The notes under the pieces are model-generated. The model made no database searches. It was not told where the DNA came from and saw nothing but the letters and a program-made list of their open reading frames with translations. A program made the position numbers and the translations under genes. A stretch of 64,000 nucleotides of DNA from the IMG/VR virus record IMGVR_UViG_3300050343_000177, positions 1 through 64,000 of that record; one strand, 5' to 3'. Below are positions 27-55,241 of the stretch, one piece after another (the first letter of the stretch is position 1; each line of letters begins with the position of its first letter). This DNA comes from a virus.

Positions 27-533
27 ATGAAAGAATACTATACCTACGTTTATTATGACGCTGATTGGGTTGCTTACTATGTAGGCAAAGGTCGTCACAA
101 CCGTAAAAGAGTTAAACGAAAAATAAAAGTTCCACCCAACGAACGCATCCAAGTCTTTCACTTTAATGAGGAGTGGAAAGCATACGAATGTGAAGTAGAG
201 CTTATAGGTTTCTACGGTCGTGCTCAAGACGGCGGCACATTAAGTAATGTTTCGACGGGTGGTCCTGGTTGCCCTGGGGTTATTCCTAATGAAGAGACAA
301 GAGCAAAAATGTCGAGTGTTGCTAAAAAGCGGCCTCCTAAAATATTCACACCAGAATACAGGCGTAATTTATCTATTGCTGCTAAATCTAGATGCCCTCG
401 GATTAGAGCTGAAGCAGGGCGTAAGTGTAGCGCCAAGTTAAAAGGTCGCAAGCAATCTTCGTCTCACGCTGAAGCAAATGGGAAAGCACATGCTAAACCT
501 CGTTTCACTCGAAATGACCATGGCCGACACTGA
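27..533 (+). CDS. GIY-YIG homing endonuclease
   Basis: 168 aa. The N-terminus reads YTYVYY...YYVGKG, the GIY-YIG signature, followed by a conserved acidic region (ELIGFYGR) and an N-G-G-type segment (STGGPGCPG). The C-terminal half carries NUMOD3-like repeats (IPNEETRAKMS and similar), the DNA-binding module of phage GIY-YIG enzymes. It probably cuts an allele of its own locus to spread. Its stop codon overlaps the start of the polymerase segment of DNA polymerase, exactly where T7 DNA polymerase passes from exonuclease to polymerase domain, so it sits inside or between two halves of that gene. Group I intron core elements were not identified; a free-standing endonuclease between split gene halves is equally possible. 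Confidence 0.85.
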   Translation: MKEYYTYVYYDADWVAYYVGKGRHNRKRVKRKIKVPPNERIQVFHFNEEWKAYECEVELIGFYGRAQDGGTLSNVSTGGPGCPGVIPNEETRAKMSSVAKKRPPKIFTPEYRRNLSIAAKSRCPRIRAEAGRKCSAKLKGRKQSSSHAEANGKAHAKPRFTRNDHGRH

Positions 534-1795
534 TGGCTCAACAAGAAGCCAGTGGCTTCCGCTTTGATATGGATGCAGCTGAACGTGTCGAGGATGAACT
601 CGCATGTGAGGCTGAAAGTATTGAAGAAAAAATTCAAGCATATATAACTACTACCCTGGCAAAGTTATTCACACCAAAACGCACGTCTGCCAAGACTGGT
701 TACGTCGCTGGTGCACCGATGACAAAGCTTGTGGACTTCAATCCAACAAGCAGGACTGCATATCCACTGGGCGCTCACCACCTTCCGTGGTGCTCGTTTC
801 ACCAAGGTGACTGACTCAGCTGGTAAGCCTAAGGTTGATGAAGCCACACTCTCTGAGGTCAGAGACCAAGCACTAGCTGCTGGTAATACACAACTGCATG
901 AAGAGTGTGAGATGTTTATCCGTCTGCTCACTTTGCAAAAGCACATGGGTCAGCTGTCTGAAGGTGCTAACTCCTGGCTCAACTCGATTGAGAAGATGGT
1001 TGTATCCATCACAGCTGCACTCTTGCTACACAGACTGGACGTAACGCTCACCGTGGTCCTAACCTCGGGCAGGTTGTTCTGCACCATGGGCTACGGAATT
1101 GTTTGTTCCATTCCCTGGTCATGTCATGGTCGGTGCTGACTTAGAAGGCATCGAGCTCAGGGCACTTGGGCACTACCTTGCAGTCTTTGATGAAGGCTCT
1201 TTGCTGAAGTTGTATGCAATGGTGATATCCACCAGCAGAATGCTGACCGCGTGGGCTGCACAAGACCTCAGGTCAAGTCGCTGACCTATGCGTTCATCTA
1301 TGGAGCTGGCGATGCCAAGCTTGGCCACGTCTTGCATCCTGAGTATTCAGATGCACAGAAGAAGTCACTTGGCAGTGAGCTTCGTCGTAAGTTCCTTGAT
1401 GCTATCCCTGGACTAGAGCCACTGATTAATGCAGTGAAGCTTAAGGTCCGTGAGACTGGCAAGCTCAAAGGCTTAGATGGTCGTCCTATCTTCTGTGACG
1501 GAGAACATAAGAGTCTAAACTTCCTTGCTTCAAAGCTGTGGTGCAATCCTCAGTAAGCGTTGGTGTGTCATCTCACAAGAGTTGATTGACCAAGCAGGGC
1601 TTACCTACAACACTGACTACACTCGTTGCGCCTACGTGCACGATGAACAGCAGTTCTCTGTGCTGCCATCAGAAGCAGACCGTGTTGCACAATTGCTTGT
1701 CGAAGCTGCACCACTTGCTGGTCAGTATTACAAGTTCAAGGTTCCTATTACTGCTGCATCAGACATCGGTGCAATAGCTGGGCTGCACGCATTAG
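533..1795 (+). CDS. T7-like family A DNA polymerase, polymerase domain (5' part missing, frame-disrupted)
   Basis: Replicative phage DNA polymerase. Segments match T7 gp5 in order: MAQQEASGFRFD (T7 LAKQERNGFPFD), YVAGAP...DFNPTSR, the fingers motif region, LEGIELRALGHY (motif A, DASGLELRCLAHF), NGDIHQQNADR, TYAFIYGAGDAKLG (motif B), KGLDGRPI, an ILSKRW helix, YVHDEQQF (motif C; catalytic His-Asp-Glu) and a natural C-terminus (...SWAATH) at the stop near 1793. The frame breaks at about 740, 994, 1096, 1200, 1528, 1773 and 1787; most repairs are one base in a homopolymer (for example TTT to TTTT at 1200). The 3'-5' exonuclease domain is absent and should lie upstream of the GIY-YIG gene, left of the window. 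Alternative: a genuine pseudogene, but the conserved sites argue against that. Confidence 0.92.
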
Positions 1796-1809
1796 ATATA
1801 ATAGTTTCT

Positions 1810-1994
1810 ATGGAAGAAACAGAGATTACATTTACAATGAATGAGCGTTCAGTATACGAGCGCTACATTCAGCTGTAGTCTTCACTTTAGAGAAGTGGGC
1901 AGGCCAAGGAGAGCTTGACCAAGAGTGTTTGCTAGGTATCAAGCCAGCACTACAAGGCTGTGTATTTGAGTTTCAACTCAACCGTTCGCGGTGA
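1810..1994 (+). CDS. Small hypothetical protein
   Basis: About 61 aa if one missing base near 1870 is restored; the uncorrected frame stops at 1878. Begins MEETEITFTMNERS and continues LEKWAGQGELDQ to the TGA at 1992. It starts 15 nt after the polymerase stop and is probably co-transcribed with it. No family recognised. Confidence 0.5.
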
Positions 1995-2015: not shown

Positions 2016-2106
2016 ATAAATACGTTCAACCGCACACATTAGGGGACGCAAGTAAGCAAGTTAAGTGCTGAAGGAACGGGAAATTTCCCCTCACTAGGAG
2101 TTTCCA

Positions 2107-5035: not shown

Positions 5036-5163
5036 TATTCTACAAACTACAAAACTACGCTAGCTACGCTGCTATCTAACCCTTTCTAAAAAAAGTCCTA
5101 TAGGTATAGCAAGGGATTTAACAAACAGGTATATAGAAAACTACTGTAGTTAGCGTAGTTTCT
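5036..5163. repeat. Dispersed element copy A (inverted CTACGCT arms)
   Basis: Left arm at about 5052-5070 has two CTACGCT copies in tandem (CTACGCTAGCTACGCT) after a CTACAAACTACAAAA run. A conserved core CTAACCCTTTCTAAAAAAA follows. The right arm near 5140-5160 is the inverse (TAGTTAGCGTAGTTT). Copies B (41651) and C (55108) share the left arm and core. This copy ends 5 nt from the integrase stop codon. Confidence 0.8.
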
Positions 5164-5168
5164 ATCAA

Positions 5169-5975
5169 TTATTGCCTTACCTGACGAATTGCCTTTAACT
5201 TATCCTCCAAAGTCCAAGTTCCGTAGCGTGCTGTCATTCCATTTATTTTGTGACCTACAAGCTTAGAAATCATTGAATCCTGCAGCTCTGCTGACCTACA
5301 GCGAGTAATGAAGTTATGACGCAGTGAGTGTGCTGCTTCCCCTTTCGGTAGTTGCATTCGTTCGCTAAACATCTGACTCCAGTTCTTACCAGGGTATTGA
5401 CTGTAGTCAGTCGTTAGACGATTGACCTGTGTATAGAACTCAGGGTGAATAGGCACGTCTCTCTGTGCTCCTGGCTTGATATTTCTGACACTATTTTTCT
5501 TTATACGAAAGTAAGGTATCTGATTGTCGAAGCGTATTTCGTTTGGCAAGAGCCCTGCAATTTCACCGATGCGGAAGCCGTGATACCAGATAGCTAGGAA
5601 GATAGGGTCTGCTTGATAACGCCCGTAGTAACTGAAGGGTCTCACTGGATACTCTTTACCCAAGCGGTTGTAATCAGTATTTAATTTAATCTTTTTACTT
5701 GCCTTACTCCAGTAGTTAGGCACATCAATAATCTCATCTTCTGTTGCCATATTCCAGATACCTGTCAGCAGGCTCAACCTCCTGCGTAATGTCTCAGGAG
5801 AAAGGGTGCCTATCGGCTTAAGCTGAGACTTCCAATAACGATTGACAGTCATACGGTCAATGTCATGCACGTCAACATCAGCTATTGGCTTAGCTGCTTT
5901 AAGCCAGCACTTGAATGTTGAGTCACGGATGTCCTGCATGTCGCGAACATCTAAGAGCAATTGAGAGACTTTCAT
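5169..5975 (-). CDS. int: Tyrosine site-specific recombinase (integrase)
   Basis: 268 aa. N-terminal SAM-like core-binding domain (residues 1-95, DRMTVNRYWKSQLKPIG...RRRLSLLTGIWN) and C-terminal catalytic domain (about 115-268). Visible catalytic residues: Arg in GFRIGEIAGL, His-x-x-Arg in HSLRHNF, the second His in VGHK and the tyrosine nucleophile in ARYG. Short compared with lambda Int (no arm-binding domain). A tRNA-Ser-like attP candidate lies about 70 nt upstream of its start, as in integrase-bearing cyanopodoviruses. It implies a capacity for lysogeny or for transposition between host tRNA sites. Confidence 0.92.
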   Translation of the reverse strand: MKVSQLLLDVRDMQDIRDSTFKCWLKAAKPIADVDVHDIDRMTVNRYWKSQLKPIGTLSPETLRRRLSLLTGIWNMATEDEIIDVPNYWSKASKKIKLNTDYNRLGKEYPVRPFSYYGRYQADPIFLAIWYHGFRIGEIAGLLPNEIRFDNQIPYFRIKKNSVRNIKPGAQRDVPIHPEFYTQVNRLTTDYSQYPGKNWSQMFSERMQLPKGEAAHSLRHNFITRCRSAELQDSMISKLVGHKINGMTARYGTWTLEDKLKAIRQVRQ

Positions 5976-6013
5976 TGTGTATTCGGGTTATAAGCAACGC
6001 CAATACATATCTA

Positions 6014-6043: not shown

Positions 6044-6070
6044 AGCTAGAAAACGGAGAGGGAGGGATTC
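6044..6070 (-). other. attP: Candidate attP: 3' end of a tRNA-Ser gene
   Basis: Read on the minus strand, CGAATCCCTCCCTCTCCG followed by TTTT matches the T-loop, T-stem and acceptor (CCTCTCC plus discriminator G) of a bacterial tRNA-Ser, but no 5' half of a tRNA is present. A partial tRNA 3' end next to an integrase is the usual phage attachment site; integration would restore the host tRNA. Confidence 0.6.
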
Positions 6071-6189
6071 GCTCCTTCCGTTATTAGCGTTGTAACCAAA
6101 CTATAGCCCCTAATTGTCACTCAATCAATCAGTTGTGCTTATCAATCAAGGCTAAAGTTTTCCACAGTCCACGCCTTTCGCTCATTTAC

Positions 6190-23190: not shown

Positions 23191-23564
23191 CTCAATGATG
23201 TAGGCAGGATGAGGGCGATAAAGTTCTGCACCAAGAAGCTTTCACAGGGTACCGACTATATCTTCACCTTTAAAAGGGCTGGACGCTTAATTAAGGAGAC
23301 TTTACTCCTCAGGTAGTCTGTGAACGTTCCTTAGGTGTACCTAAGGCTTCGCTGCTGATTGCCATATCTTTCGACTTAGGGTTCCAGCAATTCATCCAGT
23401 TTTAAAACGACCAAGTGTTTTACCAATCGTTATCAATCCACATTTCTGGGATAACTCCTAAACTAAAAGGTTTATAAGTGACTTCGACGTGTCACATAAT
23501 ACGATATTAATAGTTATATTAAAGAAGTAGTTGATGTATACCGAAGCCTCGGTGTAAAGAGAGT
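23191..23564. other. Divergent intergenic region with palindrome
   Basis: Lies between the capsid gene (minus) and an HNH gene (plus), so it should hold promoters for both. It contains CCTTAGGTGTACCTAAGG (23329-23346), an 8-bp inverted repeat, and a GGAG/CTCC hairpin near 23295. No gene seen. Confidence 0.5.
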
Positions 23565-24080
23565 ATGTCAGAATTTATTGATGTCAAAGAATGGGTACCA
23601 GTTCATACACTTCCAGGGTTCGAATGCTGCATTGAATATTATGTATCTCACGATGGAAGGGTTATGTCAACTAAAGGTGGCAAAGAGAAAATCCTCAAAG
23701 GAGCTGTTATTAAAAATGGCTATCACAAAGTCACACTTCAGCAACGATTAGGGCAGAAAGGAGAAATTCAACCCTATGTTCATACACTTGTAGCCCTTGC
23801 GTTTTTACCACCTCCACCTTCTCCTATAGGACGTACACGTGGTTCATCTGTTGTGGATCACAAAGACGAGAACAAGTTAAACAACTGTGTGTCTAATCTT
23901 CACTGGATTTCTGTCAAGGAAAATATATGCAAACATCCATATCGTAAATTTCAATCAACTCAAAAGACGGATGATGAAGTTCTTGTTCAACAGTGCAGGA
24001 ATCGATATTCACATAAGATGGCTGTACGTCGTCAAAGAGAGAAACAAAAAGCGGTTAAAATAGTAGAAAGTGATAATTAA
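23565..24080 (+). CDS. HNH homing endonuclease with NUMOD4
   Basis: 171 aa. N-terminus EWVPVHTLPGFECCIEYYVS plus SHDGRVMSTKGG is a NUMOD4 DNA-binding module; then HTLVALAFLPPP and the HNH core VDHKDENKLNNCVSNLHWIS (D-H, N, N-L-x-W). Intact. Inserted on the plus strand next to the capsid gene inside a minus-strand block, a typical homing position. Confidence 0.88.
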   Translation: MSEFIDVKEWVPVHTLPGFECCIEYYVSHDGRVMSTKGGKEKILKGAVIKNGYHKVTLQQRLGQKGEIQPYVHTLVALAFLPPPPSPIGRTRGSSVVDHKDENKLNNCVSNLHWISVKENICKHPYRKFQSTQKTDDEVLVQQCRNRYSHKMAVRRQREKQKAVKIVESDN

Positions 24081-41650: not shown

Positions 41651-41778
41651 TATTCTACAAACTACAAAACTACGCTAGCTACGCTCCTATCTAACCCTTT
41701 CTAAAAAAATGATAGTAGGGGGAGATGACCGTGCATTAATAAACAGGTATATAGAAAACTACCGTAGTTACCGTAGCA
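41651..41778. repeat. Dispersed element copy B (inverted CTACGCT arms)
   Basis: Shares ATTCTACAAACTACAAAACT, CTACGCTAGCTACGCT and the core CTATCTAACCCTTTCTAAAA with copy A. The right arm (GGTATATAGAAAACTACCGT plus AGTTACCGTAG) is also shared with copy A. Central 30 nt differ. Located at the start of the minus-strand block, just before the strand switch. Confidence 0.8.
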
Positions 41779-49822: not shown

Positions 49823-49858
49823 CTCGTCGCAGGTCTTCTGCTGCATAACATCTAATTC

Positions 49859-49874
49859 CTCACCTAACGGTGGG
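49859..49874 (+). terminator. Hairpin of cassette module 18
   Basis: CTCACCTAACGGTGGG then TTTTTTT. The following leader lacks TGTG. Confidence 0.65.
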
Positions 49875-49904
49875 ATTTTTTTGGTTGCACTTTGCATCTT
49901 TTGC

Positions 49905-52872: not shown

Positions 52873-52881
52873 TGCTTTATT

Positions 52882-55109: not shown

Positions 55110-55241
55110 AAACTACAAAACTACGCTAGCTACGCTACTTCCTAACCCTTTCTGAAAAAATACATCTATAGAGGGAAGGCCACTGCCTATTAAAAAAGGA
55201 CTTTATTAGAATCGAGCGTAGTTTGTGTAGCAGCGTAGTAA
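55108..55241. repeat. Dispersed element copy C (inverted CTACGCT arms)
   Basis: Left arm AAACTACAAAACTACGCTAG plus CTACGCT and core CTAACCCTTTCTGAAAAAA match copies A and B; the centre differs. Right arm inverted (GAGCGTAGTTTGTGTAGCAG plus CGTAGT). Starts at the stop codon of paralogue 2 and lies 62 nt before an HNH gene. Confidence 0.78.

Follow-up and report, generated by a model that had tools for sequence, protein, structure and literature searches.

A probable attachment site derived from the 3' end of tRNA-Ser beside the integrase gene of an uncultured cyanophage

Introduction

Attachment sites derived from tRNA genes have been described in cyanophages for tRNA-Leu in T7-like phages (PMC8776855, PMC3861242) and for a tRNA-Met island in P-SS2 (PMC2784084). 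In T7-like cyanophages carrying int and a tRNA-Leu attP, integration is proven but rare and no stable lysogens were found, so int and attP can act without lysogeny; in S-TIP37 both are required for integration (PMC8776855). Signatures of relic prophages in host genomes were reported together with P-SS2, including a prophage island in Synechococcus RS9917 which is bounded by tRNA-Ser (PMC2784084). A cyanophage attP at tRNA-Ser was not found in our search of the open-access literature. In int modules of the P4/PAI type, the core is located in the 3' end of the tRNA gene, the start of int faces the att site and transcription runs away from the tRNA.

Here we describe a locus in a stretch of 64,000 nucleotides, called the window, which comprises bases 1-64000 of a virus record totalling 80,431 bases (IMG/VR record IMGVR_UViG_3300050343_000177). 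Positions 6054-6071 are very probably the core of an attP through which the neighbouring tyrosine integrase would insert the circularised phage genome into a tRNA-Ser gene of picocyanobacteria, tRNA-Ser(GGA) being the most likely target. Three observations support this reading and agree with the probable attP proposed in a preliminary description of the sequence: the conservation of the tRNA part throughout the phage family, a variable base which tracks a compensatory variant of the host tRNA, and a decayed element at tRNA-Ser(GGA) in the host genome G318.

The attP core and the integrase gene

On the minus strand, positions 6071 to 6054 (CGAATCCCTCCCTCTCCG) are identical over 18 nt to tRNA-Ser, starting at C56 within the T-loop and ending at discriminator base G73. 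Of the T-loop the core contains the 3' part, of the T-stem and the acceptor stem the respective 3' strands, and it ends with the discriminator G. The 5' strand of the T-stem and the "TT" of the T-loop are absent. Directly 5' of the core the phage has CGGAAGGAG where the tRNA has CGAGGGTT; the identity therefore begins at C56. The preliminary description had placed T-loop, T-stem and acceptor of a tRNA-Ser 3' end at 6044-6070 of this strand. The sequence is indeed present, but its bounds had to be shifted and the T-arm and acceptor are represented by their 3' parts only. The window contains no tRNA-Ser gene, a tRNA-Asp at 52881 being the only tRNA gene which ARAGORN detected. The core is the sole match in the window even when up to 3 mismatches are allowed, with 0.01 expected from dinucleotide shuffles. 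It is not a chance match.

The core is located upstream of int, with 78 nt between its end and the int start codon (5975), slightly more than the 70 nt estimated before; the terminator noted between the two is also present (see below). The int gene (5169-5975, minus strand) encodes a tyrosine recombinase of 268 aa (PF00589, 2.5e-08). R135, H216, R219, H242 and Y251 are invariant in 8 aligned sequences, and we assign them as the probable catalytic residues. Tn1549-type and HP1 integrases are among the nearest solved relatives. In an AlphaFold model with a mean pLDDT of 55, the N-terminal domain has four helices and begins at residue 3; the protein seems, with low confidence, to lack a separate arm-binding domain. 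An intergenic repeat of about 125 bp with the motif AACTACGCTAGCTAC is located directly 3' of int (5042-5165) and again at 41651-41776, while the motif alone is found at 55119-55133; in relatives the repeat occurs 3' of int, too.

Sequence elements around the core

Core sites of tyrosine integrases usually consist of two inverted half-sites around a short spacer. Most related phages with a G at the variable core position (G group, see below) show this layout as GAGCG-AATCCCT-CGCTC, with inverted half-sites around 7 bp. In phages with a C at this position (C group), the right half-site is CCCTC as in the host and GAGCG is kept. From this core-type inverted repeat and the start of the attP/attB identity, a 7-bp overlap AATCCCT with the half-sites GAGCG and CCCTC is predicted at 6063-6069 (minus strand), which would place the crossover in the T-arm. 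Int would cut this short overlap in the host tRNA-Ser gene, and upon integration the 5' part of the host tRNA would be joined to the phage copy of the 3' part, so that a normal tRNA-Ser would still be made. The predicted attL consists of the tRNA-Ser 5' half, the core and TTTTCTAGCTTAAACCTCACC, and the predicted attR of CGCTAATAACGGAAGGAG, the core and the host flank.

An intrinsic terminator is located between core and int (6042-6019, minus strand), with a T run after the stem-loop and -14.3 kcal/mol over the 40 nt which hold it. Related phages have a terminator at the same place (-12.8 to -16.7 kcal/mol) with an altered stem sequence. It would end the transcript of the rebuilt tRNA and shield int from this transcription, and int would be transcribed from its own promoter. 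A TATAAC-like box just before int (5987-5992, minus strand), which is conserved in position within a GTTGCTTATA block, suggests such a promoter, possibly with a short or absent leader. A near-identical second copy of the terminator stem (CCTCACCTAACGGTGGG) is found at 49858-49881 (plus strand).

Another candidate promoter, TTGATT-17-TATAGT (6100-6128, minus strand), reads through the core to the terminator. The evidence for it is weaker than for the box before int, and the number of promoter-like sites in this region is below the mean of shuffled sequences. Similar sites occur at -57/-34 in several relatives, which together with the terminator would give a transcript of about 75-80 nt. As the core can also fold as a hairpin, its main role might be a different one, for example as part of a short RNA mimicking the 3' end of tRNA-Ser. 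We consider this highly improbable: the promoter is solely a consensus match, the inverted repeat is likewise compatible with integrase half-sites, and the insertion in G318 described below is a footprint of recombination at the core sequence.

An inverted repeat flanks the core, with the left copy CAACGCTAATA at 6082-6092 (minus strand), starting 21 nt before the core, and the right copy CAACGCCAATA at 5995-6005 (plus strand), about 20 nt before the start of int. The left copy is found at -20/-21 and the right copy at the same place near int in all 9 aligned phages, and both switch together from AACGC to AACAC in three of them (L125-L127). The copies beat 95% of shuffles in 7 of the 9 phages; in the other two (L123, L335) about 20% of the shuffles are as good. 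These repeats look like accessory sites, a role which is putative. Further out, the P arm has a distal block (6128-6166, minus strand) with an invariant TGTGGAAAA and mostly conserved TGATAAG/CTGATTG. The sequence TTTTCCACA in this arm (6158-6166, plus strand) is invariant in 9/9 aligned phages and occurs 4 times in the window versus 0.7 expected; it resembles a cyanobacterial DnaA box.

Related phages and the variable core base

Scans of IMG/VR revealed 11 contigs whose integrase is related to that of the window (65-100% identical), 10 of which contain the whole upstream region. In all 10 the core is located about 80 nt before int. One contig (L120/L135), a close relative with 97% identity to the window over 6.2 kb, also carries the attP, which therefore does not depend on one assembly. 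In an alignment of 9 sequences, 17 of the 18 core columns are invariant, compared to 70 of 203 columns elsewhere. Even a base adjoining the core differs in L335/L336. Conservation thus covers the part which is identical to the tRNA.

The one variable column has C in the window and in L120-L122, and G in L123-L127, L335 and L336. The corresponding G form of the host sequence, CGAATCCCTCGCTCTCCG, was found in 30 of 400 Cyanobiaceae genomes. Among 20 loci read, it belongs to tRNA-Ser(GGA) in all 18 in which the 5' part is present. In these host tRNAs the 5' acceptor strand GGAGAGC pairs with the G, which means that the pair G7-C66 is replaced by C7-G66. With a mismatched letter, the tRNA rebuilt at integration would lose pair 7:66, and the letter in the phage thus tracks that of the target. 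The probable target of the G group is tRNA-Ser(GGA) in hosts which have the G variant.

These observations also bear on the alternative that the core is a dead relic, either a tRNA gene fragment or a former attP out of use. It would fit with the lack of a full tRNA, a recognisable repressor or excisionase and an intact prophage in our searches. Yet the core is invariant at 17 of 18 positions among phages whose integrases are only 65% identical, its single change matches the compensatory host variant, and int is intact with conserved putative catalytic residues. A dead relic is thus very unlikely.

None of the 10 IMG/VR contigs carries the full target tRNA joined to the phage. At least 120 IMG/VR contigs contain a full tRNA-Ser 3' end; they were rejected as integrated forms, as none among the matches listed has the phage arm or a close relative of int. 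A second core-like copy 3' of int in L123 was likewise discarded as a second att site, as a complete tRNA-Ser(TGA) gene ends with it. Such a gene, encoded on the strand opposite to int, is located near the int 3' end in L123 (6824-6912, minus strand) and in L335/L336 (7311-7402, minus strand).

Match to host tRNA-Ser genes

Including flanking bases, the longest exact matches of the phage are 24 nt to tRNA-Ser(GCT) (3 genomes) and 23 nt to tRNA-Ser(GGA) (4 genomes). For the relative L125, 29 nt are common with tRNA-Ser(GGA) and its flank in genome G325 according to our reading of the search output. Identity of 20-30 nt to one tRNA-Ser had been named beforehand as support for an attP; this length is narrowly reached, with 18 nt within the tRNA and up to 24 nt with flank. 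We counted it against our explanation, as it is short beside the 36-42 nt of other cyanophage attPs (PMC3861242).

The pattern GGTTCGAATCCCTCNCTCTCCG (also NCTCTCCG) occurs in 296 of 300 Cyanobiaceae genomes, with C and T forms among the matches listed. Among the loci read, the C form belongs to tRNA-Ser(GCT) or tRNA-Ser(GGA) and the T form to tRNA-Ser(GGA). The core fits tRNA-Ser(GCT) as well and does not fix the isoacceptor; tRNA-Ser(GGA) is the most likely one for this particular phage. The same 18-mer is found in tRNA-Ser genes of many phyla, and naming the host from it was therefore rejected. The host is indicated to be a cyanobacterium by the psbA gene of the phage (59875-60963).

A decayed insertion in a host genome

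Two attP sequences were used to search 400 Cyanobiaceae genomes, and one match extends far beyond the core with both queries. It is located on contig C9 of G318, where TTCTCTAACACTTAACCCCTCACATGGAGGGGTTTTTTGTTAGGCATGGAGTGGCTCTGCTT comes after a complete tRNA-Ser(GGA) gene; spacer, terminator and int-promoter block are arranged in it as in the phage. An nhmmer profile built from the right arm of the phage but omitting the core matches G318 from immediately after the core (E=4.5e-10). This value is optimistic because G318 was preselected by similarity, while the exact position is independent support. The runner-up among 228 host loci has E=0.0018. Among the tRNA-Ser(GGA) sites read in the genus of G318 (31 genomes searched), G318 reaches 39 bits compared to at most 14 elsewhere.

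Comparison with the empty site of a sister genome (G286, locus L381) delimits the insert. Bases 1-105 of the empty site correspond to 127-231 in G318 and bases 93-360 to 834-1089, so that bases 93-100 are covered twice; they read CCTCTCCG, with which the core ends. The insert of about 603 bp has a direct repeat of the core end at both flanks, and the right arm of the phage lies next to the tRNA. At its far end a decayed core, CGAGTTGCGGCCTCTCCG (13 of 18 positions by our count), precedes the host flank. This layout is as predicted for attL...attR. The locus in G318 therefore appears to be a decayed attL...attR and is the decisive indication that a relative has integrated at tRNA-Ser(GGA). No integrase is left in the insert, and the phage left arm, having decayed, is not recognisable. 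With a size of 603 bp and no int, the insert could also stem from a different element that shared this attachment system.

The direction of transfer might be reversed, i.e., the phage arm was taken from a host by imprecise excision and G318 retains the ancestral host flank without any scar. In that case the element would remain an attP, although the support from the footprint would be gone. Terminators with a similar AACCCC...GGGGTTTTTT stem do occur after tRNA-Ser(GGA) in several genomes. However, in G318 the homology does not stop at the terminator but reaches the int-promoter block, the phage arm is absent from the other sites read in the genus, and the typical host flank follows in G318 603 bp further on, behind the decayed core repeat. 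We regard the reversed direction as unlikely and interpret G318 as the remnant of an insertion.

Genomes G245 and G325 (flank TCAC[A/C]TAACAC...) were rejected as further scars, because the terminators there have the TTTTTTTATTGG end of native host terminators and the score is 8-9 bits versus 39 for G318. About 1.5 kb of extra sequence lies between tRNA-Ser(GGA) and pstB in G245 (L333:9696-11473) in comparison to G092; a phage origin of it is conceivable. No intact prophage was detected in 300-400 Cyanobiaceae genomes. Detection of prophages by Int homology was given up, as the best Cyanobiaceae matches are ordinary integrases with 22-39% identity.

Lifestyle and phage lineage

Integration is supported at least for relatives, and we infer that the phage of the window itself integrates. 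The conservative reading is that it can integrate and that stable lysogeny is no more than a possibility. The earlier wording of a temperate or transiently integrating phage is thus upheld as far as integration is concerned, and the phage may be either of the two. Domains of CI-like repressors (HTH_3) and of excisionases (HTH_17) were not detected in the 80-kb record with the two models tried, which leaves room for other repressor types in a record that may be incomplete. A more far-reaching idea, to which we assign a low probability, is that this S-EIV1-related, psbA-carrying marine lineage is truly temperate in picocyanobacteria and that integration at tRNA-Ser(GGA) also switches the control of int. 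The promoter left of the core would then read to int only in the free circle, with read-through tuned by the attP terminator, and would be cut off from int in the prophage.

The terminase large subunit (TerL) is nearest to that of the freshwater Synechococcus phage S-EIV1 (KJ410740), with about 59% identity, and judged by its terminase the phage is not T7-like. The genome of S-EIV1 has 79 kb compared to 80 kb here; no match to the phage integrase was found in it at E 1e-3. ORFs resembling ribonucleotide reductase and replication genes were recognised by eye in L402. In the window, a DNA polymerase-like gene (by eye; 533-1878, plus strand) is split over several overlapping frames (1251-1556 and 1525-1878 among them), as if by assembly frameshifts or real decay. 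Further features are a glutamine riboswitch aptamer (RF01739, just above threshold; 2021-2082, plus strand), a protein with a C39-like cysteine peptidase domain (PF13529; 10822-11334, plus strand) and a group I intron (RF00028, 80.9 bits; 23233-23470, minus strand) near a gene of the HNH/NUMOD4 homing-endonuclease type (23565-24080).

Comparison with known attachment systems

A separate uncultured lineage with a photosynthesis gene appears to possess an attachment system aimed at tRNA-Ser. A single covarying base reveals which target is chosen, and a decayed insertion seems to persist at the predicted spot in a host genome. The tRNA-Ser(GGA) gene beside pstB is the exact place to look for such prophages in genomes, metagenomes and cultures.

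As in the T7-like marine cyanophages P-SSP7 and S-TIP37, the integrase gene adjoins a tRNA-derived attP (PMC8776855). In those phages the target is tRNA-Leu and the core, with about 40 nt of identity, lies downstream of int, whereas here the target is tRNA-Ser and the core, with 18-24 nt, lies upstream. The terminator between core and int is a further difference, and the lineage differs by its S-EIV1-like TerL. The siphovirus P-SS2 likewise bears an integrase and a tRNA-derived putative attP without an identifiable repressor (PMC2784084). Its integrase has 458 aa instead of 268 aa, another tRNA is concerned, and its attP matches 53 bp of non-coding host DNA which is partly identical to the tRNA (PMC2784084). 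P4/PAI-type modules have the same layout of core and int as found here; as a difference, the 268-aa Int may lack a separate arm-binding domain, judging from its low-confidence model. The kind of system is thus already known, while the target tRNA and the phage lineage appear to be new.
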